64,000 bases of DNA from positions 4,720,469 to 4,784,468 of the forward strand of contig NZ_KI912613.1 in assembly GCF_000519325.1 (NCBI RefSeq). Reading direction: 5' to 3'. The translations under genes and the position numbers were made by a program. Source of the DNA: Patulibacter minatonensis DSM 18081 (lineage in GTDB: Bacteria; Actinomycetota; Thermoleophilia; Solirubrobacterales; Solirubrobacteraceae). Positions 4,335 to 6,972 of this stretch are shown here, piece after piece (within the stretch, counting starts at the first letter, position 1; each line of letters opens with the position of its first letter). The notes beneath the pieces are model-generated. The model worked only from the letters and a program-made list of their open reading frames with translations, did no database searches and was not told the DNA's origin.

Positions 4335-5066
4335 TCAGGCGGCGCAGGTCGGGATCTTCGCCTTCGGCGACACCTCGACGTAGGGCGCGAAGACCCAGCG
4401 GTCCGTGCCGATGCGGATCCACGTGCTGGAGGTCCCGCTCGGCGTCGTCACCGTCTGCCCCGTGGTGCGGCACTGGACGGTGACCTTCGTGCCGGCGTCG
4501 AGCGCGGCGACGCGCGGGGCGGCCGTGCCCGGCGTGCTGCGGACGGCGACCGTGCAGGTCCCGTTCTTCGGGCACTCCCCGACGATCGTGCCCGCGACGC
4601 CCCCGGCGGGGAGGACCGCGCTGCCGGTGCCCTCGCCCGTCCCGGTGCTCGTCCCGTCGCCGGTCTCCGTCGTGGTCCCGACCGCCTTGCCCGGAGACCG
4701 CCAGGTCCGAACGGTCGACGTGGCGCGGATGCGGCCGGTCGCGTCGCGCGCCTGGACGGTCAGGGAGACCTGGGTCGCGCGCGGGACCCGTGACGCGTCC
4801 CACCCGATCGCGAACCCGTTGGACGCGACCTCGTCGACGCCGAGCCTCCGCGTCCGCACGACGCCGTCGGCCCCCTTCCAGCGTCCCCGGAAGACGACGG
4901 AGCGCGTGGCCGCCGACGCCTTCGCGGTGAGCTGCAGACGGGGCACGGAGGTGGTCGGCTGCGTGACCGACAGCGAGACCGGCGCGGGAGCGGCGTCCGC
5001 GGACCCGGCTGCGACGAGCAGCACGGCGGTGGCGGCGGTGGAGACGGCGAGACGGGACCGAGACAT
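4335..5066 (-). CDS. Secreted protein with C-terminal SH3-like domain
   Basis: 243-residue exported protein of unknown function. A classical signal peptide (RSRLAVSTAATAVLLVAAG, ending SADA-AP) is followed by an Ig-like beta-rich region of about 110 residues and a Thr/Gly linker at about 140-155. The end is a bacterial SH3-like module: GTIVGECPKNGTCTVAVRST, then a Gly- and Thr-rich strand pattern to WIRIGTDRWVFAPYVEV. Three to four cysteines in that module could form disulfides outside the cell. SH3b modules often bind peptidoglycan, so cell-wall association is a reasonable inference. It lies 104 bp downstream of the presenilin-like gene on the same strand. Confidence 0.75.
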   Translation of the reverse strand: MSRSRLAVSTAATAVLLVAAGSADAAPAPVSLSVTQPTTSVPRLQLTAKASAATRSVVFRGRWKGADGVVRTRRLGVDEVASNGFAIGWDASRVPRATQVSLTVQARDATGRIRATSTVRTWRSPGKAVGTTTETGDGTSTGTGEGTGSAVLPAGGVAGTIVGECPKNGTCTVAVRSTPGTAAPRVAALDAGTKVTVQCRTTGQTVTTPSGTSSTWIRIGTDRWVFAPYVEVSPKAKIPTCAA

Positions 5067-5170: not shown

Positions 5171-6109
5171 TCAGCCGGGTGCCGCGGCGCCCGACGGCCC
5201 GGCCGCGGACGCCGCCGCACCCCGGTCCCGTGGCCCGCGGAGCCCCCCGAAGAGCAGGAGGGCGACCGCGATCGGCACCGTCGCGGGCAGCGTGTCCACG
5301 ACCTCGAACAGCAGGTCGAAGAGCAGCGAGAGGACGAGCGTGGCCCCCGCGGCCGCGAACTGCCGCCGCCGGCTCGCACCCTCCGCGGCGAGCACCGCCC
5401 CCAGGACGCCTGCCACGAAGACGTCGCCGTAGCCCATCGAGGCGGTGCCGAACTGGACGAACTGCAGCCGCGGCAGGTCGGCGGCGGGGACGGCGGCGTT
5501 CAGCGCGTCGTTCGGCTTCTCCAGGCCGCCCGAGAACACGAGCACCGCGTCGATGACGGCCATCGCGACCAGGGCGATCCGGATCCAGGCGAGCGGCGGC
5601 ACGGCCTCGAGGACCCGGCCGGTCGCGACCCGCACCCGCCCGGCGACCTGCGCCGCGCCGTGGTCGGGCAGCGGTGCCGACGCGTCCGGCACCGGGACCC
5701 CGCCCACGACGCCGACGAGGAGCCGTCCGAGCGTCACGCAGCTCAGCGCGGTGATCGCCAGCGCGGCGGCCTGGCCCGCGCGCTCGCCCTCCGCGGTGAT
5801 CGCCACCACCAGCGCGGGCACGGCGAGCACCGCCAGCCACGGACGGGCCCCGCGGGCGCCCCACCCGACCGCGGCGGCGGCCAGGGGCGGCGTGGCGATC
5901 AACGCGAGCCACGTCAGGCCCACCGCCGCGCCCGGGAGCACGGCGAGGACGCCCACCACGACGGCGATCGAGAGCGGGAGGACGAGCGACCACGCACGAC
6001 CGGCGAAGCGGTGCGCGAAGGCGGGCAGCCCGGCGGCGGGCAACGCGACGAGCAGCGCCTGCACGGCCACCAGGACGGCGTTCCAGCCGGAGTACGGGAG
6101 CGGGCCCAT
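5171..6109 (-). CDS. Presenilin/signal-peptide-peptidase-like intramembrane aspartyl protease (A22-like), nine TM segments
   Basis: 312-residue membrane protein that I interpret as a GxGD-type intramembrane aspartyl protease. About nine hydrophobic helices can be drawn (near residues 11-31, 40-64, 65-83, 90-104, 114-135, 173-193, 216-241, 250-272 and 275-290). Helix 6 carries Asp187 in AVIDAVLVFSG, where presenilins have the YD motif. Helix 7 carries MGYGDVFVAGVLGAVLA with Asp229 in a GxGD motif, and helix 9 opens with PATVP near where the family has PAL. Spacing and order match family A22 rather than prepilin peptidases (A24). Its ATG directly follows the udg stop codon with no gap, so the two are co-transcribed. 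Protease activity is inferred; the fold assignment is moderately sure. Confidence 0.62.
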   Translation of the reverse strand: MGPLPYSGWNAVLVAVQALLVALPAAGLPAFAHRFAGRAWSLVLPLSIAVVVGVLAVLPGAAVGLTWLALIATPPLAAAAVGWGARGARPWLAVLAVPALVVAITAEGERAGQAAALAITALSCVTLGRLLVGVVGGVPVPDASAPLPDHGAAQVAGRVRVATGRVLEAVPPLAWIRIALVAMAVIDAVLVFSGGLEKPNDALNAAVPAADLPRLQFVQFGTASMGYGDVFVAGVLGAVLAAEGASRRRQFAAAGATLVLSLLFDLLFEVVDTLPATVPIAVALLLFGGLRGPRDRGAAASAAGPSGAAAPG

Positions 6110-6841
6110 CTAGGCCGGGCCGTCGATCTCGAAGAGCCCGAGCTGCCCGCGCGGGTCCTCGTCGACGGGGGGCGTGACGCCGCGGTCGGTCCCGCGGGGA
6201 GGGTCCGGGACGGGCTGCGGCGGCTCGGGGAGCTCCACGAGCCCCGGGACGAGGGCCAGGTCCGCACGGAGCACGTCGACGAGGCGCGGCTCGTAGAGGG
6301 CGGCGTCCGGGTGGTGGACCGGGAGCAGCCGCACGGTCCGGGTGCCGAGTCGCCGGACCTCGGCGCGGCCGTGGAGCGTCTTGATGCTCCCGGGATCCTC
6401 GCGCAGGAGCTTCGTGGCGAAGTTCCCGAGGGTGCAGACGACCTTCGGGCGGACGAGGGCGATCTGGGCGTGGAGGTGCTCGCGGCAGTGCGAGAGCTCC
6501 TCCGCCAACGGGTCGCGGCCCGACGGGGGCCGGCACTTCAGCGCGGTCGTGACGTACACGTCCTCGCGCCGCAGCCCGATCTCGCCCAGCAGGTCGGTCA
6601 GCAGCCGCCCGGGGGCACCGACGAGCGGGAGGCCCTGCTGGTCCTCGCTGCGCCCCGGGGACTCGCCGACGAACAGCACCTCGGCGTCGGGGTCGCCCGC
6701 GCCGAAGACCACCGTCGTCCGTGCGGCCACGAGCTGGGGGCAGCGGACGCACGACCGGGCCCGTCCCCGGGCCGCCGCCAGGTGCAGGCGACGCTCCGCC
6801 GCGGTGGGCGGCGGTGCGGGAGCGGACGGCGGGGATCCCAC
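6110..6841 (-). CDS. udg: Type-4 (Fe-S) uracil-DNA glycosylase
   Basis: Removes uracil from DNA as the first step of base-excision repair. Four cysteines for the [4Fe-4S] cluster are present at about residues 31, 34, 103 and 119 (CVRC, then LKC and SHC with the family-4 spacing of 16). Motif I reads GESPGRSED and motif II HHPDAAL, both as in family 4 and unlike family 5. The GTG at 6841 (243 residues) is favoured because a TAGCCT -10 hexamer sits 8 nt upstream. A longer in-frame start at 6922 would add a basic, low-complexity N-terminus. The C-terminal ~35 residues are Pro-rich and end QLGLFEID. The next gene starts immediately after its stop codon. Confidence 0.93.
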   Translation of the reverse strand: MGSPPSAPAPPPTAAERRLHLAAARGRARSCVRCPQLVAARTTVVFGAGDPDAEVLFVGESPGRSEDQQGLPLVGAPGRLLTDLLGEIGLRREDVYVTTALKCRPPSGRDPLAEELSHCREHLHAQIALVRPKVVCTLGNFATKLLREDPGSIKTLHGRAEVRRLGTRTVRLLPVHHPDAALYEPRLVDVLRADLALVPGLVELPEPPQPVPDPPRGTDRGVTPPVDEDPRGQLGLFEIDGPA

Positions 6842-6849
6842 GACGGACG

Positions 6850-6855
6850 AGGCTA
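6850..6855 (-). promoter_or_regulatory. -10 hexamer of udg (leaderless)
   Basis: TAGCCT, 8 nt before the GTG at 6841. The same hexamer precedes mutY at a similar distance. Confidence 0.5.
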
Positions 6856-6972
6856 GCGGGCGGGGTCCGCGGCGGCGGAGCACCCGCGGCCGGCGGGGTC
6901 GCCGGACGGACCGCACGCACATGATCCCGAAGCCGAGGTAAAACCTGGGAACCCTGACCTGGTTTCACTCCG

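Follow-up and report, generated by a model that had tools for sequence, protein, structure and literature searches.

A divergent protein family of Thermoleophilia with the predicted fold of presenilin and signal peptide peptidase

A putative protease gene directly downstream of udg

The window analysed here, a stretch of 64,000 nucleotides from Patulibacter minatonensis DSM 18081 (contig NZ_KI912613.1, positions 4,720,469 to 4,784,468), contains at 5171..6109 a gene encoding a protein of 312 amino acids with an ATG start. We annotate it as a putative nine-TM intramembrane aspartyl protease with the presenilin/SPP fold, on the combined grounds of the open reading frame, a family of homologues, AlphaFold modelling and structure comparison. 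The gene lies on the minus strand, a detail absent from an earlier, sequence-only reading of this DNA. Its GC content at the three codon positions is 81/56/96%, as expected for a genuine gene in DNA of this kind. Directly upstream, at 6110..6922 and also on the minus strand, lies a gene for a family-4 uracil-DNA glycosylase (udg; TIGR00758, E 1.8e-48, over cut-off). As that reading had claimed, the two genes abut: the ATG of the protease gene (6109-6107) comes immediately after the udg stop codon TAG (6112-6110), and the two are likely co-transcribed. Downstream of the protease gene, the minus strand at 4335-5066 encodes a product with an apparent signal peptide (MSRSRLAVSTAATAVLLVAAGSADA...).

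The residues on which the sequence-only reading was built can all be read in the protein as described, namely Asp187 within AVIDAVLVFSG, GYGD with Asp229, and PATVP at residues 275-279. Along the minus strand, helix 6 (residues 172-192, from DSSP of the model discussed below) corresponds to 5534..5596 and carries Asp187, the first presumed catalytic aspartate, whose codon is at 5549..5551. A strongly conserved LPxLQ motif (residues 212-216, 5462-5476), to our knowledge without an equivalent in presenilin or SPP, precedes a β-hairpin (strands 217-220 and 223-226, seen in both models), the whole segment spanning 5432..5476. GYGD (residues 226-229), with Asp229 opening helix 7, follows at 5423..5434, and PATVP, which stands just before helix 9 at the place of the PAL motif, is encoded at 5273..5287.

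Family spread and conserved positions

Known presenilins and SPPs come from eukaryotes and archaea. We found homologues of the window protein in 32/81 related genomes, representing 19/45 genera, and, across the class Thermoleophilia, in 21/149 genomes including lineages outside the order Solirubrobacterales; in these lineages most matches are distant, with E values around 1e-25 to 1e-40. The homologue of P. americanus (L031; Solirubrobacterales, Thermoleophilia) is 71% identical. When phylum samples were searched with the family profiles, credible matches were confined to Thermoleophilia, and plasmids gave no match. Six further profile matches outside the class (E 0.007-0.05) are short pieces, which we take as chance. 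Some genomes hold a second, diverged copy (L062/L094 in G028, L093 in G045, L095 in G064 and L096 in G038), so the family has paralogues. The sequence-only reading had called such a protein unusual in actinobacteria, and this holds for canonical SPP: PF06550 was above cut-off in 0/396 Actinomycetota genomes, with a single weak match of 48 columns, while Haloferax and Methanosarcina, the archaeal controls, were positive in the same search.

The family also escapes the common sequence models. For the window protein (P0002) there is no Pfam match and NCBIfam matches are at chance level only, and no convincing match to either library was obtained for its homologues. A22 families are absent among the Pfam matches of P0002 and 34 members at E values up to 10, profile searches of the Patulibacter genome with PF01080 and PF06550 gave no match, and neither did a profile search of PDB sequences with the protease family. 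The check that had been proposed beforehand, a match to the Pfam models of SPP or presenilin, thus failed, since no A22 model recognises the family.

Conservation was assessed over 45 diverged homologues, down to ~30% identity. Seven positions are invariant in 45/45 (Q17, P74, D187, P213, D229, T277 and P279), both presumed catalytic aspartates among them, as the proposed reading would have it. Q216 of LPxLQ is kept in 44/45, G226 in 42/45 and G228 in 40/45; P275 and A276 are found in 43/45 and 42/45 respectively, and the Leu of PAL is replaced by the invariant Thr. GxGD is complete in 37/45 homologues; three have DYGD or DFGD (DxGD), and five distant members (L055, L056, L058, L059 and L060) have GWLD or GWMD in its place while retaining both aspartates. 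The second Gly of GxGD is reportedly required in presenilin-1, according to work of Steiner and colleagues from 2000. An aromatic residue before D187, as in (Y/F)D, occurs in 0/45 homologues, the residue there being I, V, A, L, S, G or T. Given homologues in so many of the related genomes and the invariance of D187, D229, P213, T277 and P279, the pattern is more than chance.

Predicted fold and comparison with A22 and A24 proteases

AlphaFold, supplied with 34 aligned sequences, modelled the window protein with a pLDDT of 88.4 and a pTM of 0.85, as nine membrane helices, with a hairpin of two strands immediately preceding GYGD and with PATVP directly ahead of helix 9. As a guard against a fluke we separately modelled a distant GWLD member, L060, which shares 29% identity with the window protein (pLDDT 91.9, pTM 0.89). 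This model runs through helix 6, a short helix 6a, the hairpin, helix 7, helix 8, the motif and helix 9, which is the order of A22 proteases. Two confident models bear out the nine helices that the sequence-only reading had counted; they place D187 in helix 6, D229 in helix 7 and PATVP directly ahead of helix 9.

In the structure comparison with the window model, rows 1-17 are all presenilin or SPP structures (Z 10.3-17.7) and the first unrelated fold scores 5.2. Human SPPL2a was the best match (Z 17.7, rmsd 3.8 over 241 residues), presenilin-1 structures scored mostly ~16-17 and archaeal PSH 12.3. Foldseek was weak with this model, its best hit (E 0.23) still being to gamma-secretase. With the L060 model, Foldseek hit SPPL2a with an E of 5.2e-4 and a probability of 1.00, and rows 1-22 of the structure comparison are all A22 (Z 9.8-17.0, SPPL2a at 17.0), the next unrelated structure scoring 4.8; the best viral match of this model is a Megaviridae signal peptide peptidase. 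Helical bundles sometimes score high Z by chance, but the all-A22 lists, the gap below them and the full-length coverage argue against this for both models. In addition, the position equivalent to strand β2 of PSH is a strand in both of them; this strand, which precedes GxGD, is needed for activity in PSH (PMC9282858). The description of the protein as presenilin/SPP-like thus stands as far as the predicted fold and the conserved catalytic residues go, but the missing Pfam match means that it is no clear A22 member.

A common fold proves no function, and a protein with the A22 fold might serve the membrane in another way, for example as a channel or chaperone, with no cutting of peptides. The departures from the known motifs (no Tyr/Phe before D187, PAT for PAL, and GWxD in five members) could be read in this sense. 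However, catalytic positions are normally freed from conservation once catalysis is lost, and here both aspartates are kept in every one of the 45 diverged sequences; the motif region ahead of helix 9 is likewise conserved. We consider a non-proteolytic role unlikely.

The A24 prepilin and preflagellin peptidases are also GxGD aspartyl proteases, and the family might be related to these enzymes and cleave pilin leader peptides on the cytoplasmic side. Profile comparisons bear on this point in both directions. The A22 side of our comparison consisted of three sequences, PSH and PS1 (both identical to PDB) and human SPP, since a scan of viral contigs by pattern found no A22 sequences that could be added; the resulting three-sequence alignment misplaces helix 6 of PS1 and was excluded from our claims. 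HMM-HMM alignment of the family with PSH places D187 on D162 and D229 on D220. PSH and human SPP outscore each of 39 unrelated polytopic controls from the same loci, PS1 does not, and the match of the family to PSH is by itself not significant (probability 3%, P 0.013). On the other hand, the GxGD stretch is 52% identical to that of A24 over 23 columns (P 0.0026), a resemblance to the same degree as to A22 or more, and individual A24 sequences reach scores against the family similar to that of PSH. PF01478, the A24 model, is not above cut-off for P0002 and matches 2/34 members weakly (best E 0.036). The sequence therefore supports a GxGD protease without choosing A22 over A24.

The choice of A22 rests on the fold, on the aspartates in adjacent helices and on the motif before helix 9. 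The profile comparison with A24 aligns the GxGD stretch only, and the Lys that follows GxGD in A24 sequences is missing in the family (V-F). The aspartates are placed otherwise in A24 enzymes; in the family they are 42 residues apart in adjacent helices, with PATVP as an extra motif before the ninth helix, and both models match A22 structures over nearly their whole length. Besides, a separate, genuine A24 gene is present in 31/31 genomes tested, the Patulibacter genome included. A24 structures are not among the rows of either structure comparison, an absence that carries no weight against an A24 fold. Overall, we regard a relationship to the A24 peptidases as quite improbable.

Gene context, orientation and proposed function

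The sequence-only reading had linked the protease to the adjacent glycosylase and proposed, as speculation, that it releases signals after DNA damage. A survey of the neighbours of homologues, judged from their sequences, showed that six genomes of the window's genus have udg next to the protease gene and in the same direction, so the linkage stands within this genus. It does not extend further: in other genera udg was not found beside the homologue, the neighbours vary and are housekeeping or otherwise unrelated genes, and no conserved neighbour other than udg was found in the homologue neighbourhoods. The protease gene is a stand-alone gene. Adjacency of housekeeping genes within a single genus is common; here it probably means little, and udg and the protease are probably functionally unrelated. 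A damage-linked protease working with the glycosylase, which the abutting TAG and ATG and the pair in six genomes might suggest, is hardly credible given a linkage restricted to one genus and the lack of any other conserved neighbour.

We also looked at other membrane proteases in these genomes. Five genomes of the window's genus carry S49 (SppA-like) peptidases (e.g. G000:C1:3554612-3555034), which are rare in the rest of the order and occur in 11/81 genomes in all, and M50 proteases are universal in the genomes compared. A replacement of SppA by the protease was not supported: outside the genus, S49 occurs in six genomes, all of them without the protease gene; as 25 of the 73 genomes carry that gene, this is not significant (~0.07, an estimate that ignores relatedness).

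To predict the orientation in the membrane, we mapped the helix ends of the model onto 45 members and counted Lys and Arg on each side. The side with loops 1, 3, 5, 7 and the C-terminus carries a mean of 8.4 such residues and the other side 2.3, with the same sign in 45/45. By the positive-inside rule, this places the N-terminus outside, the C-terminus inside and the helix 6-7 loop outside, a predicted orientation, from sequence and model, that is the same as in SPP and opposite to presenilin. The catalytic centre of SPP/SPPL enzymes is oriented opposite to that of presenilin and accepts type II segments (PMC7366577). With an SPP-like orientation, leftover signal peptides or type II segments would be the likely substrates of the bacterial family.

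Among known systems, the family shares with SPP/SPPL (MEROPS A22B; human SPP, SPPL2a) the nine helices, the location of the aspartates in helices 6 and 7, GxGD, a proline-containing motif before helix 9 and the predicted N-out/C-in topology. The aspartates are also similarly spaced, 42 residues apart in the window protein and 46 in human SPP. The family differs from SPP/SPPL in its ~15% identity, in the absence of (Y/F)D, in PAT for PAL, in the lack of a Pfam match and in being bacterial. Archaeal PSH/MCMJR1 (4HYC, 4HYG, 4Y6K; PF06550) is likewise a stand-alone prokaryotic nine-TM enzyme of similar size with its aspartates in register, but the identity is 16%, PF06550 fails to match the family, and PSH has YD and PAL. 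With presenilin (MEROPS A22A; PF01080) the family has in common the fold, the two aspartates and the strand before GxGD, whereas its predicted orientation is opposite, it lacks the long helix 6-7 loop and PF01080 does not match; nor did we see any sign of partner subunits such as those of presenilin.

Taken together, the models and the conserved residues make it quite probable that the gene product is a bacterial intramembrane aspartyl protease of a divergent kind, with the A22 fold, SPP orientation (N-out, C-in) and putative activity. We infer catalysis, the type of substrate and a housekeeping role. In the mechanism we propose, a water molecule would be activated by the two aspartates, Asp187 (helix 6) and Asp229 (helix 7). 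The substrate, once unwound, would pair with the strand in front of GYGD and with the PATVP loop ahead of helix 9, and cleavage of N-in membrane segments (leftover signal peptides, type II anchors) would take place inside the bilayer. Since the family lacks the aromatic residue before Asp187, has PAT for PAL, has GWxD in five members and has no Pfam match, we class it as a divergent A22-fold family, putatively SPP-like in action, and assign it neither to A22A nor to A22B.

Demonstration of presenilin/SPP outside eukaryotes had to await archaeal PSH (PMC2947513). Among the papers searched, none described a bacterial presenilin/SPP branch. We are evenly divided over a broader proposal, in which the family would form, in Thermoleophilia, a third branch of the presenilin/SPP fold, a bacterial one with the signature D ... 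LPxLQ ... GYGD ... PATVP, acting as a partner-free protease of signal peptides or type II segments, and with a GWxD sub-branch that would be active in breach of the rule demanding the second Gly. If true, a bacterial branch missed by sequence models would extend the age and the spread of this type of protease, and small enzymes that stand alone would become available to structural and inhibitor research. PAT in place of PAL and GWxD in place of GxGD would then be natural tests of which active-site residues are needed, and a whole family of proteases in Thermoleophilia would be one that the common annotation libraries leave unnamed.
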